Shown here: positions 4,493 to 12,424 of the stretch, piece after piece
How the letters are laid out: each line of letters begins with the position of its first letter
How positions within the stretch are numbered: the stretch's first letter is position 1
Assembly (NCBI RefSeq): GCF_020880995.1
Contig: NZ_JAJISD010000018.1
Location: 1 to 64,000, forward strand
Direction of reading: 5' to 3'
Source: Reyranella aquatilis
GTDB lineage: Bacteria > Pseudomonadota > Alphaproteobacteria > Reyranellales > Reyranellaceae
Length of the DNA stretch: 64,000 nucleotides
Translations under genes and position numbers: made by a program
Notes under the pieces: model-generated
Told to the model about the DNA's origin: nothing
What the model saw: only the letters and a program-made list of their open reading frames with translations
The model's database searches: none

Positions 4493-6025
4493 TCAGGCCG
4501 CGCGCACCTCCAGCCCCTGCGGCGTGGCGCGATAGCCCGTCAGCGTTCGCTCGGCGAAGCCCAGCCGCCAGTCGAGCATCTTGCGGGCATATTCGCCGAC
4601 CGTGGCGGCATAGGCGGGATCGGCGGCGCAATTGATGAACTGGCCCGGGTCCTTCGCGAGATCGAACAGCAAGGGCGGCAGGGCGGCGAAGTGCACGTAC
4701 TTGAACTTCTCGTCCTGCACGACCGCCAGCGAGCACCTGTCCATCGGCACGCCCAGCGCCGATTCAGGCTTGCTGTAATGCAGGTCGCGGAAGTCGAATT
4801 CGTAGTGGACCTCGGTGCGCCAGTCGGCCGGAACCTCGCCTTCGCAGAAGGGCAGCAGCGAACGCCCGTCGCATTGGCGCGGCACAGGCAGGCCCATCCA
4901 TTCGAGGATGGTCGGCATCGTGTCGACGGTTTCGGTGAATCGGTCGACGATGCTGCCGCGCGTGCTGTCGGCCTGGGCGCGCGGATCGCGGATGATCATC
5001 GGGATGCGGTAGGATTCGTCGAAGTAGCCGATCTTGCCCAGCAGGTAATGATCCCCGCCCTGCTCGCCGTGGTCGCAGGTGAAGACGATCAGCGTGTCGT
5101 CCCACTGGCCGGTCTCCTTCAGATAGTCGAAGACGCGGCCCAGGTGATCGTCGATCTCGCTCATCAGGCCGCAATAGGTCGCGCGCATCTGCGCCACCTC
5201 GGCCTCGCTCATGTCCGAACCGAGATCCTTGCCGTCCTGGAAGAAGCTCGCCTGCTTCACGTTGCGCACATAGTAGTCGAGCAACGCGTTCTGCCTGCCC
5301 TCTTCCGCCGGCGACGCCGCGCGCACCGGCTTCGGCATGTCCTCGGGCCGGTACATGGAATTGTAGGGCTCTGGCGCGATGAACGGCGGATGCGGCCGGT
5401 AGTAGCCGAGATGCAGGAACCAAGGCTTGCCGCCCCGGCCGCGCAGATAGTCGAGCCCACGCTCGGTAAACCAGGCCGTGTCCGAAAGTTCCTTCGGAAT
5501 GACGGCCGGCCGGCCCGTGGCGCCGGCGCCCGGCGCGCCTTTCGGCAGCCAGATATCCTCGCGCGTCTTCGGCATCTCGAAGCCCTGGCTGGCGACCCAG
5601 CCGAAATAGGCATCGCGGTTCTCGAAGGCGCCAACCGAATGGAAGCCCTCCATGATGTCGCCCAGCACGAAGAAGCGCGGGTCGTTGGGCGCGGTGTGGC
5701 GCGGATCGGGCGTCGTGGTCGTGTAGCCCACCAGCGCGGGATCGTAGCCGCCGCGCCTGAGTTCATGCGCCAGGTTGGTGAAGCGCGAGGACAGCGGAAT
5801 CGTGTTCTGCACCGCGCGATGGTTCATCAGGTACTGGCCCGTCAGCAGGCTGGCACGCGCCGGTCCGCAGGGCACGGCCTGGGTGAAATGATTGCGGAAG
5901 GTCACGCCCTCGGCGCACAGCCGGTCGAGATTCGGCAGCTTCAGATAGTCCGCGCCCAGCTTGGGCAGCATCAGCCCGCGCCACTGGTCGACGACGATCA
6001 ACAGGACATTCTTGGGCGCAGGCAT
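4493..6025 (-). CDS. Phosphonate monoester hydrolase/arylsulfatase-type enzyme
   Basis: Alkaline-phosphatase-superfamily hydrolase of the formylglycine type. The 510-residue product has a metal-binding Asp in LLIVVDQWRG (Asp13), the modification motif Cys-Gly-Pro-Ala-Arg at residues 53-57, where Cys53 would become formylglycine, and a second metal site in FTCDHGEQGGDH. The N-terminus MPAPKNVLLIVVDQWRG and the segment around YLMNHRAVQNT closely match rhizobial and Burkholderia phosphonate monoester hydrolases as I recall them; a sulfatase role cannot be excluded. The ATG at 6025 is preferred over a GTG six bases upstream because GGTGAG sits correctly before it. It is divergent from the dehydrogenase at 6097. 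Confidence 0.85.
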   Translation of the reverse strand: MPAPKNVLLIVVDQWRGLMLPKLGADYLKLPNLDRLCAEGVTFRNHFTQAVPCGPARASLLTGQYLMNHRAVQNTIPLSSRFTNLAHELRRGGYDPALVGYTTTTPDPRHTAPNDPRFFVLGDIMEGFHSVGAFENRDAYFGWVASQGFEMPKTREDIWLPKGAPGAGATGRPAVIPKELSDTAWFTERGLDYLRGRGGKPWFLHLGYYRPHPPFIAPEPYNSMYRPEDMPKPVRAASPAEEGRQNALLDYYVRNVKQASFFQDGKDLGSDMSEAEVAQMRATYCGLMSEIDDHLGRVFDYLKETGQWDDTLIVFTCDHGEQGGDHYLLGKIGYFDESYRIPMIIRDPRAQADSTRGSIVDRFTETVDTMPTILEWMGLPVPRQCDGRSLLPFCEGEVPADWRTEVHYEFDFRDLHYSKPESALGVPMDRCSLAVVQDEKFKYVHFAALPPLLFDLAKDPGQFINCAADPAYAATVGEYARKMLDWRLGFAERTLTGYRATPQGLEVRAA

Positions 6026-6096
6026 GTTCACTCACCGAGGTTGGACGGCCGCAGGATTGCGCTAGAGTGCCGCCAAATTGGAGGAGGAGACAACAC

Positions 6097-7154: not shown

Positions 7155-7346
7155 TCACGACTTCTGTTGCTGCAGCCGGTCGCGGATTGCCCGGTCGCAC
7201 TGCGCGAGACTTTCGAAGGGTCCGAGGATGACGTGATTGCCGTCGTCCATTGCGTACCACCCGGTCTGGGTGAGGTTGTAGTCGCCGAGATCGTCCTTCG
7301 GGACGTGCACGGCGATCAGGTCCTTCGGGGTGCGCATGGATTGCAC
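7155..7346 (-). CDS. Small conserved-looking protein, function unknown
   Basis: A 63-residue soluble protein with no signal or membrane segment. The centre, GWYAMDDGNHVILGPFESLA, followed by a helical end rich in Arg and Gln (CDRAIRDRLQQQ), looks like a folded beta-beta-alpha unit rather than random translation. It starts 22 bp after the stop of the dehydrogenase at 7369-8349 on the same strand and could be the last gene of the amidohydrolase operon. No function can be assigned from sequence alone. Confidence 0.6.
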   Translation of the reverse strand: MQSMRTPKDLIAVHVPKDDLGDYNLTQTGWYAMDDGNHVILGPFESLAQCDRAIRDRLQQQKS

Positions 7347-7368: not shown

Positions 7369-8349
7369 TCAACCCCGACGGGTCCAGCTCAAAAGATTGA
7401 CCGCGCCGGGCGGCACCTCGCCCTTCATCAGCGCCTCGACCTGGCTGACCGTATCCATTGCCTGGCTTTCGCTGGCGGGCGGCGTCAGGCCGCCGATATG
7501 CGGCGTGGCGATCACGTTGGGCAGGCGTGCCAGCTCGGGCGACGGCATCTGGTCCGGCGCACGGCCGACATCCATCGCCGCGCCGGCGATGCGGCCCTCG
7601 GTCAGGACCTTCGCGAGCGCAGCTTCGTCGACCAGATTGCCCCGCGACATGTTGATGAAGAAGGCGTCCGGCTTCATGCGGGCGAAAGCCTCGGCATCGA
7701 GCAGGTTCTCGGTCTCCTCGTTGGCGATCGCGAGGCAGACCACGTAGTCGGCCTTCGGCAGCATCTCCTCTAGCGGCAATTTCACGAAACGCCGGTCGTC
7801 GACCTGGGCATAGGGATCGGACACCAGCACGGTCATGCCGAGCTGGGCCAGCACCGGTGCCAGTTCGCGCGAGATGCGGCCGTAGCCGATGATACCGACG
7901 GTCGCGCCGCCCAGTTGCCGGCCGACCCTGATCTCGGGCTTCTGGCCGGCGTGATAGGCGGTCGCCGCCCGCGTAATGCCACGCGAGAGATCGACCAGAA
8001 ATCCAAGCGTGAGTTCGACTACGGACGGGACGAAGCCGGCTTCGGCATGCGTCACCAGCACGCCAGCCTTCGAAGCGGCGGCCACGTCGATGTTGCGGAT
8101 GTCGATCGCGCTGCGCATCACCGCGCGTAGACCCGGCAGGCTCTCGAACACGAGCGCCGGTATCGCCGTCGCGCGGTCGGCGACGATTAAGTCTACACCG
8201 CGCGCCATCCCGATCACGCCCTGAGGATCGAGCGGCGCCTCGCCTTCGTGCAGCACGACCTCGACCAGCTCCTGCAGGCGTGCGAGTGCAAGGGCACCGT
8301 AGTACTGGCGCCGCGCGAGAGGGACGTGGGTGAGTAGGAGCTTCTTCAT
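7369..8349 (-). CDS. D-2-hydroxyacid dehydrogenase-like protein lacking the catalytic Glu
   Basis: A 326-residue member of the D-isomer-specific 2-hydroxyacid dehydrogenase family. The NAD motif is VGIIGYGRIS at 151-160, with Ser for the last Gly. Arg236 (MSRGNLVDE) and His284 (TPHIGGLT) are present, but the region that normally reads DVFEPEP is DVGRAPDQMP at 260-269, so the usual catalytic Glu is absent. It may still reduce or oxidise a hydroxyacid through Arg and His, or act on a different substrate. It lies 44 bp after the AtzH-like gene, which suggests a role in the same operon. Confidence 0.82.
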   Translation of the reverse strand: MKKLLLTHVPLARRQYYGALALARLQELVEVVLHEGEAPLDPQGVIGMARGVDLIVADRATAIPALVFESLPGLRAVMRSAIDIRNIDVAAASKAGVLVTHAEAGFVPSVVELTLGFLVDLSRGITRAATAYHAGQKPEIRVGRQLGGATVGIIGYGRISRELAPVLAQLGMTVLVSDPYAQVDDRRFVKLPLEEMLPKADYVVCLAIANEETENLLDAEAFARMKPDAFFINMSRGNLVDEAALAKVLTEGRIAGAAMDVGRAPDQMPSPELARLPNVIATPHIGGLTPPASESQAMDTVSQVEALMKGEVPPGAVNLLSWTRRG

Positions 8350-8393: not shown

Positions 8394-8792
8394 CTAGCTC
8401 TTCATCGGCGTCGCCTCGCCCAGCAGGGAGACGTGGGCGGCGACGATGCGCCAGCCGTCGGGTGTGCGCATCCAGGTGTGGCTCTGCCGGCCGGGCTTGC
8501 TCGCGCCGTGGCGCTGGAACTCGCAGTTGGCCGTCCCGAAGTCGCGGCCGTAGGTGACGACCCAGAGCTTCAGCAGGTCGCGATTCGGCACGAACTGCGG
8601 ATTGCGGCCCGAGCGGAAGGCGGCGATCTGGTCGTAACCGTAGAGCTGCTCGCCGACGCCGTAGCGCAGCGTGTGCGGGCTCTTCCAGAAGAGCTCGTCC
8701 AGTACCGCGACGTCGTTGCTGTTCAGCGCCGCCTCGTAGCGATTGAATGCGGCCGTCACTTCGGCGACGACTTCCGGAATGTTGATTTCCAT
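8394..8792 (-). CDS. AtzH/HpxZ-like protein
   Basis: A 132-residue protein of the SnoaL/NTF2-like AtzH-HpxZ group (DUF3225). The text [20 protein letters not shown] and [19 protein letters not shown], ending in [18 protein letters not shown], matches this family. AtzH-like proteins accompany AtzE-type amidohydrolases in s-triazine degraders, and HpxZ accompanies the homologous oxalurate genes. A good Shine-Dalgarno (GAGGAG, 6 bases before ATG) is present. It starts 9 bp after the AtzE-like stop codon, so it is in the same operon. Its biochemical role in this organism is inferred only from this context. Confidence 0.82.
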
Positions 8793-8801
8793 ACGGACTC
8801 C

Positions 8802-10184
8802 TCAGGCGGGCGGCGCGGCGGCGACGCCGAGCTTCTGCAGATGGGCGGCCACGCGCAGCGCCGCCTGTTCGTTGTAGGGCTTGGCGATAAGCTGCACCCC
8901 GATGGGCAGTCCACCCGGCCGCTGCAGCGGCGCCACGGCGACCGGCAGGCCGATGAAGGAGATCGGCTGGGTGTAGATGCCGAGATTGGCGCGCACCGCC
9001 AGTGAGACGCCGTCCAGGGTCATCATGGTCTGGCCGAGCTTGGGCGCAGTGCAGGGCGTGGCCGGCGCCAGAATCACGTCGACCTCTTCGAACAGTTTCA
9101 GCACCTGGGCGCGGTACTGGCGGCGGAAGCGTTGAGCCTTCACGTACCAGGCGCCGGGCAGCAGGGCGCCGGCCATGAAACGCTCCCGCGTGTCGGGGTC
9201 GAAATCCTGCGGCCGCGTGCGCAGACGCGGCAAATGGAGCTGTGCGCCCTCGATGGCAGTGATGACATAGGCAGCGGCGCGCGCGGCGGCGGCCTGCGGC
9301 AGGACCACGGTCTTCGTCGCGCCCAGCGCCTTGGCGACGGTGGCCACCGCCTCGAACGCCTCGGGCTCGCCACCCTTGGCAAAGTAATCGCCGGCAATTC
9401 CGATGCGAAGCCCGCCGACGCCTTCGACCAGCCTCGGCAGGGTTGGATCCGCCGGACGGTCCGTGCAGACCGGATCATCCGAGTCCCAGCCCTGCATCGC
9501 GTCGAAGGACAAAGCGAGATCCTCGGCCGAGCGGGCGATTGGACCGAGATGGTCGAAGGAATCGACGAACGGGAAGGACCCGGCACGGCTCAGCCGTCCA
9601 TAGGTCGGCTTCAGGCCGAACAGGCCGCACAGCGAGGACGGCACACGGATCGAGCCGTTGGTGTCGGAGCCCAGCGCCAGGGGCACTTCGCCCGCCGCCA
9701 CCGCCGCGCCCGAGCCGCCGGACGAACCACCCGACATGCGCGTCGGATCGTGCGGGTTGCGCGACGGACCGTAATGGGCGTTCTCGCCGGTGAAGTCGTA
9801 GGCGTACTCGCCCATGTTGAGGCCGCCGACCAGGATTGCGCCGGCCGCCTCGAGCTTGCGCACCAGCGCGCCGTCCCGCTCGGCCTTCGGACCATCGACA
9901 TTGATCTTCGAGCCGGCGCGGGTCGGCAGGCCCGCGATGTCGAACAGGTTCTTCACCGCGAAGGGCACACCGAGCAGCGGCCCGCGATGCAGGCCGGCGT
10001 CGATCTCCGCCGCGCGCCTGCGTGCACGGTCGGCGACCACGTCGGTGAAGGCATTGACCGCCGGTTCGGCCGCCTCGATGCGCTTCAGCGTGGCGTCGAT
10101 CACGGCAGCGGCCTTGACCTTGCCGCTCATCACCGCGCCGGCGATTTCCGTCGCGGTCGCACTCTTCGACAGGGGATCGCTCAT
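8802..10184 (-). CDS. AtzE/HpxY-like amidohydrolase (amidase signature)
   Basis: Amidase-signature enzyme of 460 residues in the AtzE family (1-carboxybiuret hydrolase in s-triazine catabolism; HpxY in oxalurate use). The Lys-Ser-Ser triad is visible: Lys78 in GVPFAVKN, Ser154 in GGSSGGS and Ser178 in GSDTNGSIR. Its start overlaps the stop of the AtzG-like gene (ATGA, 10181-10184), which fits the known AtzE-AtzG complex, a GatA-GatC-like pairing. The AtzH-like gene follows directly. An AtzF-like allophanate hydrolase is divergent upstream. Substrate assignment between carboxybiuret, oxalurate or another ureido compound is open. Confidence 0.88.
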   Translation of the reverse strand: MSDPLSKSATATEIAGAVMSGKVKAAAVIDATLKRIEAAEPAVNAFTDVVADRARRRAAEIDAGLHRGPLLGVPFAVKNLFDIAGLPTRAGSKINVDGPKAERDGALVRKLEAAGAILVGGLNMGEYAYDFTGENAHYGPSRNPHDPTRMSGGSSGGSGAAVAAGEVPLALGSDTNGSIRVPSSLCGLFGLKPTYGRLSRAGSFPFVDSFDHLGPIARSAEDLALSFDAMQGWDSDDPVCTDRPADPTLPRLVEGVGGLRIGIAGDYFAKGGEPEAFEAVATVAKALGATKTVVLPQAAAARAAAYVITAIEGAQLHLPRLRTRPQDFDPDTRERFMAGALLPGAWYVKAQRFRRQYRAQVLKLFEEVDVILAPATPCTAPKLGQTMMTLDGVSLAVRANLGIYTQPISFIGLPVAVAPLQRPGGLPIGVQLIAKPYNEQAALRVAAHLQKLGVAAAPPA

Positions 10185-10369
10185 GGCCGGTACACCGGGG
10201 CCGACATGAGGTCGTCCTCCAACTCCAGCTCCAGCAGCGGCCGCGCGATGGCGAGCGAGCGCTCGACGTTCAGGATCACGTTGGGCAGGTATTCCGGCGC
10301 GATCGCGAGGCCCGCGGTCTTCGCGCCCTCCTCGACCATGCGCGCGACGTCACGCTTGTCTTCGGCCAT
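10181..10369 (-). CDS. AtzG/HpxX-like small subunit
   Basis: A 62-residue protein of the AtzG/HpxX type (DUF4089), resembling GatC. It has the expected features: a short helix (DVARMVEEGAKTAGLAI), the motif APEYLPNVILNVERS, and a C-terminal extension with ARPLLELELEDD. In characterised systems this subunit wraps around AtzE and is required for its stability. Here it is encoded immediately upstream with a 4-bp overlap, so one-to-one synthesis by translational coupling is likely. Confidence 0.85.
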   Translation of the reverse strand: MAEDKRDVARMVEEGAKTAGLAIAPEYLPNVILNVERSLAIARPLLELELEDDLMSAPVYRP

Positions 10370-10648
10370 CGGAGCCTTTCTTCCCTTGGAATCGCCGGCA
10401 GCGGAGCCGGCCTTCAGACGACATGGAGATCGCGGCGCATCAGCCGGTAGCTCCTGCCGAGATCATGCTTGAGTTGCCGGAGAAGCTGCAAGATCGCCAA
10501 TCCGGCCCGCTTGTTCCCGGATGCGCGACGCATCATGTCCTGGCCCTCGCCTTGCCGTTTCCCGTTTGATCGCAAAGGCAAGGACCGTGCCAATCGCTGC
10601 GCGCATCTTGCGGCTGCATTCGGCCCGGCGCTTGTCTAAAACCTTTGT
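10370..10648. promoter_or_regulatory. Divergent control region between AtzG-like and AtzF-like genes
   Basis: This 279-bp gap must carry promoters for both the minus-strand AtzG-E-H operon and the plus-strand allophanate hydrolase. Near the right end, TTGTCTAAAACC lies just before the AtzF-like start and no Shine-Dalgarno is visible there. A 40-codon minus-strand reading frame (10414-10536, beginning MMRRASGNKR) lies inside the gap; it is basic and could be a small protein, but I do not claim it. No regulator gene or recognised operator is seen. Confidence 0.45.
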
Positions 10649-12424
10649 ATGACAGCCCCTCTCGACCTCGGTGTTCACGCGCTGCTCGGCGCCTATCGCG
10701 ACGGCACGCTTACGGTGCGGCAGACCATAGAAGAGGTGCTGAAGCGCATTGCCCAGGCCGGTGATGACAAGGTCTGGATCTCGCGCGCTCCCGATGCAGA
10801 CCTGCTGGCCCAGGCAGACGCGCTCGATGCGCGTCGTGGCGAGATCGGGCGGCTTCCCCTTTTCGGCGTGCCCTTCGCGGCCAAGGACAATCTCGACGTC
10901 GCCGGCATGGTGACGACCGCCGCGTGCCCCGGCTTCGCCTATGAGGCGAAGACTTCCGCCGAGGTCGTGCAGCGTCTGGTCGACGCCGGTGCAATCGTGA
11001 TCGGCAAGACCAATCTCGACCAGTTCGCCACCGGCCTCGTCGGCGTGCGCTCCCCCTACGGCGTGCCGCGCAATCCCTTCGACGCGTCGTATGTGCCCGG
11101 TGGCTCCAGCTCCGGTTCGGCGGTCGCGGTATCGTCGGGACTCGTGAGCTTCTCGCTGGGCACCGACACCGCGGGCTCGGGACGCGTGCCGGCCGGCTTC
11201 AACAACATCGTGGGCCTCAAACCGACGCCCGGCCTGCTCAGCAACGAAGGCATGGTCCCGGCCTGCCGCTCGCTCGACTGCACATCGGTGTTCGCTCTGT
11301 CCTGCGCCGACGCCGATGCGGTCCTGGCCGTCGCCGCCGAGCCGCACACGACGCCGGCCATCGGCAAGAGCTTCCGCTTCGGCATCCTCGGCACGAAGGA
11401 CGCCGAGTTCTTCGGCGATGCGGCCTATGCGACGCTCTATGCGCAGTCGATCGAGCGGCTGAAGGCGCTCGGCGGCACGCCGGTCGAGATCGACTACGCG
11501 CCGTTCCGCGATGCCGCGCAGCTTCTCTACAGCGGCCCCTGGGTCGCCGAGCGCACGGCGGCGGTCGGCGCCTTCATGGAGAGCGCCGACGACAAGTCGG
11601 GCGTCTGGCCGACGACGCAGCAGATCGTGCTGGGCGGACGCAAGTACAGCGCCGTCGATGCCTTCGAGGGTCAGTACAGGTTGGCCGAGCTGAAGGCGCG
11701 CGCCTTCGCCGAGATGAAGGGCCTCGATTTCCTGGCGGTGCCAACCGCCGGCACCATCTACAAGCTGAGCGATCTCGAACGCGAGCCGGTGCTCTACAAC
11801 TCGCATCTCGGCCACTATACGAACTTCGTGAACTTCTTCGGCCTGTCGGCGCTTGCCGTGCCGGCCGGCTTCCGGCCCGACGGCATGCCCTTCGGCATCA
11901 CCTTGATCGCGAACGCCAATGCCGAGCGCGCCCTGCTCGCCTTCGGGGCACGCTGGCAACGCGCGGTGCCGCTGCCGCTGGGCAAGACGACGAGCCAACT
12001 GCCGCCGCCCGAGCGCGATCCGGTGGTCGTGGAGGATCGCGTGCCGGTCGCGGTGGTGGGCGCGCATATGAGCGGTCTCCCGCTGAACGGCCAGCTCCTC
12101 GCATTGGGCGGCCGGCTGGAGAAGGCAGCCAGGACCGCGCCGGTCTATCGCTTCTATGCCCTGCCGGGCGGTCCGCCGCATCGGCCGGGGCTGGTGCGGG
12201 TGGCCGAGGGCGGCGGCGAGATCGAACTCGAAGTGTGGAGCCTGCCCGCCGAGAAGATCGGCGCCCTGCTGCGCCAGATCCCCGCGCCGCTCGGGCTGGG
12301 AAGCGTCAGCCTGGCCGACGGCACGTCAGTGCCGGGCTTCCTGTGCGAAGCCCACGCGACCACGGCCGCGAAGGACATCACCTCGCTGGGCGGCTGGCGG
12401 GCCTACGTCAAGACCCTCGGCTGA
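10649..12424 (+). CDS. atzF: Allophanate hydrolase
   Basis: Two-domain allophanate hydrolase, splitting allophanate to ammonia and CO2. Residues 1 to about 440 form an amidase-signature domain with triad Lys79 (GVPFAAKD), Ser153 (GGSSSGS) and Ser177 (GTDTAGSGR). Residues about 455-591 match the C-terminal allophanate hydrolase domain (VAVVGAHMSGLPLNGQL at its start, ending AKDITSLGGWRAYVKTLG). Total length, 591, is typical of AtzF. It is not fused to a urea carboxylase and none is nearby. The divergent AtzG-E-H-like operon suggests that allophanate arises from AtzE-type hydrolysis. The start has no clear ribosome site. Confidence 0.92.
   Translation: MTAPLDLGVHALLGAYRDGTLTVRQTIEEVLKRIAQAGDDKVWISRAPDADLLAQADALDARRGEIGRLPLFGVPFAAKDNLDVAGMVTTAACPGFAYEAKTSAEVVQRLVDAGAIVIGKTNLDQFATGLVGVRSPYGVPRNPFDASYVPGGSSSGSAVAVSSGLVSFSLGTDTAGSGRVPAGFNNIVGLKPTPGLLSNEGMVPACRSLDCTSVFALSCADADAVLAVAAEPHTTPAIGKSFRFGILGTKDAEFFGDAAYATLYAQSIERLKALGGTPVEIDYAPFRDAAQLLYSGPWVAERTAAVGAFMESADDKSGVWPTTQQIVLGGRKYSAVDAFEGQYRLAELKARAFAEMKGLDFLAVPTAGTIYKLSDLEREPVLYNSHLGHYTNFVNFFGLSALAVPAGFRPDGMPFGITLIANANAERALLAFGARWQRAVPLPLGKTTSQLPPPERDPVVVEDRVPVAVVGAHMSGLPLNGQLLALGGRLEKAARTAPVYRFYALPGGPPHRPGLVRVAEGGGEIELEVWSLPAEKIGALLRQIPAPLGLGSVSLADGTSVPGFLCEAHATTAAKDITSLGGWRAYVKTLG

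Follow-up and report, generated by a model that had tools for sequence, protein, structure and literature searches.

What natural compound does an AtzG–AtzE–AtzH module serve when it stands back to back with an allophanate hydrolase? The question is raised by a locus at positions 8,394–12,424 of a 64,000-nucleotide stretch of Reyranella aquatilis (the window, C10:1-64000 in a 6.0 Mb genome). On the role of AtzEG before herbicides, one paper restates the idea of a herbicide-driven evolution of AtzEG from GatCA (PMC12625717), and another suggests that the cyanuric acid operon may be younger than AtzGEH and gives no substrate for the other clusters (PMC6219798). We compared the locus with the rest of its genome, with 76 genomes of the order (65 in the window's genus, own included) and with loci from wider relatives. 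The locus probably, if well short of certainly, encodes the common lower steps of a pathway that scavenges nitrogen by way of carboxybiuret and allophanate, with three operons co-induced under nitrogen limitation.

Architecture and gene identities of the locus

The original prediction described AtzG, AtzE and AtzH as one coupled unit, divergent from a two-domain allophanate hydrolase and followed by a dehydrogenase and a 63-residue protein. Profile searches recovered each of these genes:

10577..10592, minus strand: TGGCACGGTCCTTGCC, a promoter site of the sigma-54 type directed toward atzG (agreement with the consensus at 15 of 16 positions)
10181..10369, minus strand: AtzG-like subunit, 62 amino acids (PF13318, E 2.5e-11, 44.2 bits, cut-off 24; 4-base overlap with atzE)
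8802..10184, minus strand: AtzE family amidohydrolase, 460 amino acids (TIGR02715, 685.8 bits, cut-off 425.75)
8394..8792, minus strand: AtzH/HpxZ-like protein, 132 amino acids (PF11533, E 3.1e-55; NCBIfam HpxZ, 183.7 bits, cut-off 135)
7369..8349, minus strand: D-2-hydroxyacid dehydrogenase homologue HADH1, 326 amino acids (PF02826, E 7.1e-48)
7155..7346, minus strand: P63, a 63-amino-acid protein with a GTG start (matches in 49 of the 76 genomes of the order)
10649..12424, plus strand: two-domain allophanate hydrolase AtzF, 591 amino acids (TIGR02713, 745.6 bits, cut-off 511.05; amidase and AH_C domains, the latter 165.9 bits)

Besides the overlap of atzG and atzE, the gene coordinates leave a gap of 9 bases between atzE and atzH, and HADH1 and then P63 follow atzH. 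The best PDB matches are 6c62, labeled biuret hydrolase, for AtzE (E 8.7e-147), the AtzH structure 6bjt for AtzH (E 1.4e-45) and the allophanate hydrolase 4gyr for AtzF (E 4e-169). AtzEs on contigs named Reyranella share up to 97% identity with this AtzE. Its predicted Lys-Ser-Ser triad is complete, with Lys78, Ser154 and Ser178, assigned as the triad residues by comparison with GatA, lying within motifs invariant in 102 grouped rows of the AtzE alignment. The gene-order comparison that had been proposed as a check showed the order HADH1-AtzH-AtzE-AtzG with divergent AtzF again in many congeners, with insertions in some. By these homologies, AtzE at 8802..10184 is likely a 1-carboxybiuret hydrolase and AtzH at 8394..8792 likely decarboxylates its product; the original prediction was right in naming the genes and in connecting them with ureide nitrogen catabolism.

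To place AtzE further, we compared 13 positions that separate HpxW-linked proteins from those of AtzD, TrtA or BiuH loci. Window AtzE resembles the AtzD/TrtA/BiuH proteins at 11, the HpxW-linked ones at one (E334) and neither group at one (V96). The AtzH pocket keeps eight of nine residues, including Tyr22 and Arg46, with Gln108 replaced by His. A second AtzH-family gene lies on C8:57907-60050 (L100:7907-10050), near a PRK08310-type amidase (435.9 bits, cut-off 391), and has two pocket arginines altered; more than one AtzH-family match is found in 51 of the 76 genomes.

Candidate feeding genes on other contigs

The earlier statement that no cyanuric acid hydrolase is present stands for the window and falls for the genome, in which an AtzD-family gene at C1:977858-978898 matches the cyanuric acid amidohydrolase equivalog NF052395 with 522 bits (cut-off 360). 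Its best PDB match is the cyanuric acid amidohydrolase 6bum (E 9.2e-131), and barbiturase reaches only 3.1e-84. Beside it are ABC transporter genes resembling PotD/PhnT types, below cut-off. Contig C22 encodes BiuH (420.4 bits, cut-off 370) and, ~2 kb away, a TrtA homologue whose best PDB match is 6xix (E 3.7e-90); 6xix bears the PDB name 'cysteine hydrolase', and we take it to be TrtA. A GntR-type gene lies divergently at the C22 locus, which also encodes a BMP-like transporter scoring below cut-off. Predicted carboxybiuret-making enzymes are thus represented in the genome by the AtzD equivalog and the TrtA homologue, both unlinked to atzGEH. The native ureide substrate, which the original prediction left open, is accordingly less open than thought, the unlinked AtzD, TrtA homologue and BiuH genes sharing one promoter-site type with atzG.

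Downstream, the genome has a single AtzF match (E <= 1e-120). Urea carboxylase was considered as an allophanate source and rejected: none of the 76 genomes has one over cut-off, and the listed matches span only the first third of the model. With one AtzF match and no urea carboxylase over cut-off, the window AtzF is the only recognized allophanate sink. In a separate region, C27:278576-280171 (L276) holds a gamma-glutamyltransferase gene (365.9 bits, cut-off 357.85), possibly HpxW-like, with a sigma-54-type site downstream of it that is directed at the next transporter gene.

Co-occurrence and genomic neighborhoods

Across the 76 genomes, AtzE is found in 59, AtzF in 57 (55 over cut-off), AtzD in 50 and TrtA-type proteins in 50, the last by our own sorting of below-cut-off BiuH matches. 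BiuH is over cut-off in 31; the co-occurrence tally counts 32, one of them at 361 bits. Every AtzF-positive genome has a single AtzF match. Associations were examined in 56 genomes at least 90% complete, a set taken without a contamination filter and with tests that ignore shared ancestry. There, AtzF is present in 41 of 45 AtzE genomes, while all 25 BiuH genomes have both AtzF and TrtA and none of the 12 AtzF-less genomes has BiuH. Two near-complete genomes (L047 in G023, L048 in G012) keep atzG and atzE with no AtzF or intact operon AtzH at the thresholds used, and a short AtzH-like stretch is visible in L140. In the named control genome Caulobacter vibrioides, AtzE, AtzF and AtzH are over cut-off and AtzD has no match, so the module is also present in a species that is tractable in the laboratory.

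Neighborhoods were compared over the loci of the order, the best 80 named loci of a longer list, five plasmid-collection records and wider phylum loci. For the last set, an even sample of 398 genomes of the phylum contained 35 further AtzE-positive genomes, of which 20 were used. Among these 20, in overlapping classes, six have TrtA/BiuH, four HpxW, two AtzD, five a peptide-type substrate-binding protein and eight AtzF. TrtA at 50% identity or more occurs in 13 of the 46 loci L154-L199 (including L195, the marker source), and 8-oxoguanine-deaminase homologues at that level in seven loci (L166, L173, L181, L185, L195, again the marker source, L199 and L252). One genome, G170 (L260), combines a BMP transporter, BiuH, AtzD, AtzF, AtzE, AtzH and TrtA inside 20 kb. 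A different arrangement, AtzGEH and AtzF adjoining a peptide-type transporter, occurs in Bradyrhizobium, Azorhizobium, Ferrovibrio, Roseomonas and several genomes of the order; the transporter is not at the locus in the window's own lineage.

The AtzE phylogeny was built twice. A first tree of 118 rows, from which 34 Reyranella rows (L120-L153) had been left out beforehand, included the badly extracted L118 and the very long L263, both removed afterwards. The second, of 86 rows, had Reyranella thinned and L101, L103 and L108 left out as identical to named rows. In the 86-row tree, the AtzEs linked to HpxW (oxalurate) group in a single clade of five rows (100/100), all of one family-level group, so that taxonomy and function are confounded there. 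Window AtzE falls outside this clade, among alphaproteobacterial AtzEs of TrtA, transporter and AtzF loci. The AtzE of Pseudomonas sp. ADP pairs with that of L256, from a TrtA/BiuH/BMP locus (100/99).

Sigma-54-type sites before three operons

Between atzF and atzG, on the minus strand, TGGCACGGTCCTTGCC agrees with the sigma-54 consensus TGGCACGNNNNTTGCW at all but one position. The site is identical in seven of seven aligned near relatives. Comparable sites precede the AtzD operon, ~70-85 bases before the first gene in all ten loci that reach the operon head, and the BMP-BiuH-TrtA operon, in four of five loci; eight short loci (L079-L082, L200-L203) stop before the operon heads and hold no site. 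The pattern TGGCAYRNNNNTTGCY, drawn from these three sites (atzG, AtzD operon, C22 operon), has one match in the window against 0.02 expected. A conserved element of the -24/-12 type before the operon is thus consistent with sigma-54-dependent transcription of atzGEH.

To assess how the site distributes among AtzGEH loci, we scanned upstream regions, excluding the duplicates L154, L155 and L160 as well as loci whose upstream sequence was shorter than 300 bases. Transporter-bearing module loci have it in 34 of 40 (up to two mismatches) or 28 of 40 (up to one), and loci of the order without the transporter in 18 and 10 of 29. It is in none of five HpxW loci and in 5 and 2 of 16 other loci; control regions, which include coding DNA, have it in 87 and 34 of 1379.

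Ten further matches to the pattern in the genome were read and the genes beside eight of them scanned. One match precedes a PII-family gene (below the equivalog cut-off) with an ammonium transporter (over cut-off); others precede RpoN and RutA, both over cut-off, and an SsuA-type binding protein below cut-off. One is near a protein that resembles a nitrate transporter by eye, with no NCBIfam match. Three of the eight scanned had no gene match. Taken together, the shared sites suggest a putative three-locus nitrogen-limitation regulon.

At C22 (L204:15537-15548), the palindrome ATTGCATGCAAT, likely a GntR operator, occupies the stretch that separates the BMP operon from the divergent GntR-type gene. 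GntR control was rejected, as neither the atzG-atzF gap nor the region ahead of the AtzD operon showed a ATTGCATGCAAT-type site.

A proposed salvage pathway

In the pathway that we propose, nitrogen limitation would turn on the three operons together through sigma-54 RNA polymerase, probably with NtrC. Carboxybiuret would arise from cyanuric acid via AtzD (C1) or from triuret via TrtA (C22). AtzEG would deaminate 1-carboxybiuret to 1,3-dicarboxyurea, which AtzH would decarboxylate to allophanate; AtzF would then convert allophanate to ammonia and CO2, and would also consume the allophanate made by BiuH from biuret. The enzyme activities, the common activator and the flow of metabolites between loci are all predicted from sequence. 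The chemistry has precedent: PMC6219798 gives 1,3-dicarboxyurea as the AtzEG product and reports that AtzH speeds up the AtzF-dependent step, and PMC7948467 reports carboxybiuret as the product of TrtA and names triuret and cyanuric acid as possible outcomes of urate oxidation.

The neighbors found across genomes (TrtA, BiuH, AtzD, 8-oxoguanine deaminase, BMP-like transporter), together with the shared nitrogen-limitation promoter type, give a concrete and testable answer on the natural role of AtzEG, with triuret and cyanuric acid as natural urate oxidation products. We extend it tentatively, as an idea with less than even prospects: AtzGEH could be no recent herbicide enzyme and serve instead as the carboxybiuret arm of an ancient natural route that salvages oxidized urate products (triuret, cyanuric acid, biuret). 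Reyranella would run it as a three-locus sigma-54 regulon, and the plasmid atzDGEHF of the atrazine strain would have been drawn from such a triuret-type locus. If true, a bacterium can encode a whole mineralization with genes that no one locus reveals.

Evidence against the pathway and alternative substrates

Several observations weigh against this shared-pathway reading. Genome-wide, TGGCAYRNNNNTTGCY has 13 matches and its reversed control 7, so that half or so of the 13 may be chance. Only one of 21 loci in a TrtA, BiuH or AtzD context has the site at either mismatch limit, a count that covers the stretch before atzG, the operon head being unscanned. AtzE and AtzD are not significantly associated (p = 0.17, in the set at least 90% complete, uncorrected for ancestry); both AtzD and TrtA are missing from 10 of 59 AtzE genomes, and among 17 AtzE-negative genomes seven have AtzD and five have TrtA. 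The main split of the AtzE tree (midpoint root) tracks taxonomy, and its 8-row side (100/97) joins the HpxW clade, the ADP AtzE and two triuret-locus AtzEs. Because the split is mainly taxonomic, the clade of window AtzE says little about its substrate. The AtzH pocket is identical in the carboxybiuret and oxalurate groups and was dropped as uninformative between them. At AtzE position 96, Arg occupies 23 of 23 AtzEs from AtzD/TrtA/BiuH loci; window AtzE has Val, and 46 rows of the order have Val in 30, Ala in 8, Ile in 4 and others in 4. The missing Arg is the best hint at a possibly altered substrate. Finally, a peptide-type transporter is the neighbor in many relatives.

The last two observations bear on an explanation that we consider unlikely, though worth taking seriously, in which the main substrate is another ureide, ancestrally imported by a peptide-type (SBP_bac_5) ABC transporter; AtzEG would have shifted in specificity, and the AtzD and TrtA loci would be separate. 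The loss of Arg at position 96 fits such a change, and the transporter lies between atzF and atzG in many relatives, with binding proteins 48-97% identical to the Bradyrhizobium marker in the genera named above and in several genomes of the order. It is also present in four (G003, G049, G060, G071) of six genomes that have AtzE and AtzF without AtzD or TrtA, being absent from G035 and its place in G043 cut off by the contig end. The window's own genome, however, retains the operon, the promoter site and AtzF although no orthologue of the transporter's binding protein was found in it (best-scoring match 29% identity). AtzF acts on allophanate, which would tie the product to carboxybiuret or biuret chemistry, and only one of the 13 separating AtzE positions is HpxW-like.

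Oxalurate use, which the original prediction had raised through the HpxXYZ homologues of Klebsiella, would have AtzE deaminate oxalurate and AtzH decarboxylate the product to oxamate. NCBIfam names this AtzH, like the ADP AtzH, HpxZ; the shared AtzH pocket and the gamma-glutamyltransferase gene on C27 also suit it. In the tree, the HpxW-linked AtzEs have a clade of their own, yet one grouped with the ADP AtzE rather than with alphaproteobacterial rows, so that the two uses are not cleanly separated; this placement slightly raised our estimate for oxalurate and lowered that for the shared pathway by as little. Against it, an adjacent AtzF would be idle in oxalurate use, 12 of the 13 separating positions are not HpxW-like, and no HpxW match appears among the order's listed rows (L101-L118, L120-L153); two Ferrovibrio loci have one at 46-47%. 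We regard oxalurate as an improbable substrate, and less likely than the earlier proposal allowed. Still less credible, and close to dismissible, is that only AtzF matters, as the sink for BiuH, with AtzGEH a remnant retained by linkage. AtzF does accompany BiuH in every BiuH genome at least 90% complete, and in G017 (C260:32986-37112) it lies ~1.8 kb from BiuH with no AtzE match, so the two genes can be linked. But AtzE, AtzG and AtzH are intact and conserved in the Reyranella locus, and the sigma-54-type site faces atzG rather than atzF. A shared lower pathway for carboxybiuret and allophanate remains our preferred explanation.

HADH1, P63 and adjacent genes

The dehydrogenase homologue HADH1 indeed lacks the catalytic Glu, as first described. 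The family Arg (R236) and His (H284) are kept in 48 of 48 rows, and the Glu position holds Pro in 43, Ala in 3 and Leu in 2, so that no row has the Arg-Glu-His catalytic set of D-2-hydroxyacid dehydrogenases. HADH1 comes after AtzH in Reyranella and in a second genus (L101) follows it directly at 9 bases; it is likewise found in G017 and G036, which show no AtzE match. P63 has no NCBIfam or Pfam match and is restricted to the genus, with none in 11 genomes outside it. AtzE has no match in nine of the 49 P63 genomes (six of the nine being at least 90% complete), and P63 was rejected as a pathway member on that count. The suggestion that the two proteins hint at an uncharacterized pathway therefore carries little weight, both also occurring without AtzE, and neither helps to name the substrate.

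In congeners L057, L069 and L072, genes are inserted between HADH1 and atzH; the L057 insertion includes an L-arabinonate-dehydratase-type gene (1095 bits), and other inserted genes resemble RraA and an amidohydrolase by eye. HADH1 may be involved in sugar-acid use. P63 occurs as two tandem copies in several congeners (L049, L051, L052, L056 and others), the second copy sharing ~50-57% identity with the P63 of the window. The gene at window positions 4493-6031 (minus strand) encodes a PehA-type phosphoric/sulfuric ester hydrolase (901.2 bits, cut-off 900) and lies beside the locus in many congeners.

Comparison with known systems

As far as the literature searched goes, the three-locus arrangement, the shared sigma-54-type sites and the presence of AtzGEH in TrtA/BiuH/8-oxoguanine-deaminase loci are new; no placement of AtzGEH in triuret loci was found in that literature, whose coverage excludes most subscription journals. 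A close characterized counterpart is the pADP-1 atzDGEHF operon of Pseudomonas sp. ADP, which shares the AtzG, AtzE (54.1% identity), AtzH and AtzF set and has its AtzD homologue represented in the Reyranella genome. In Reyranella, however, the atzD gene sits on a separate contig, atzF runs divergently, and two further genes, HADH1 and P63, come after atzH. The Reyranella atzG is also faced by a sigma-54-type site, whereas none was found just before pADP-1 atzG, the head of that operon being unscanned. Klebsiella hpxWXYZ (L240) has the same AtzG-AtzE-AtzH order; in contrast to it, the present locus includes AtzF, has no HpxW match beside it in the order and encodes an AtzE outside the HpxW clade.

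AtzF beside AtzGEH without AtzD has already been reported in beta-proteobacteria, in clusters with ABC transporters (PMC6219798). Those clusters resemble the present arrangement in their gene content and its relatives in their transporters; there, atzF is on the same strand, whereas the Reyranella locus has a divergent atzF and lacks the transporter. The trtA-biuH-atzF locus of Herbaspirillum and Rhizobium leguminosarum, as described in PMC7948467, parallels the C22 locus, where TrtA and BiuH homologues stand with a BMP-like transporter. In Reyranella, by contrast, AtzF is unlinked to these genes, and AtzGEH would provide a second route from carboxybiuret to allophanate.

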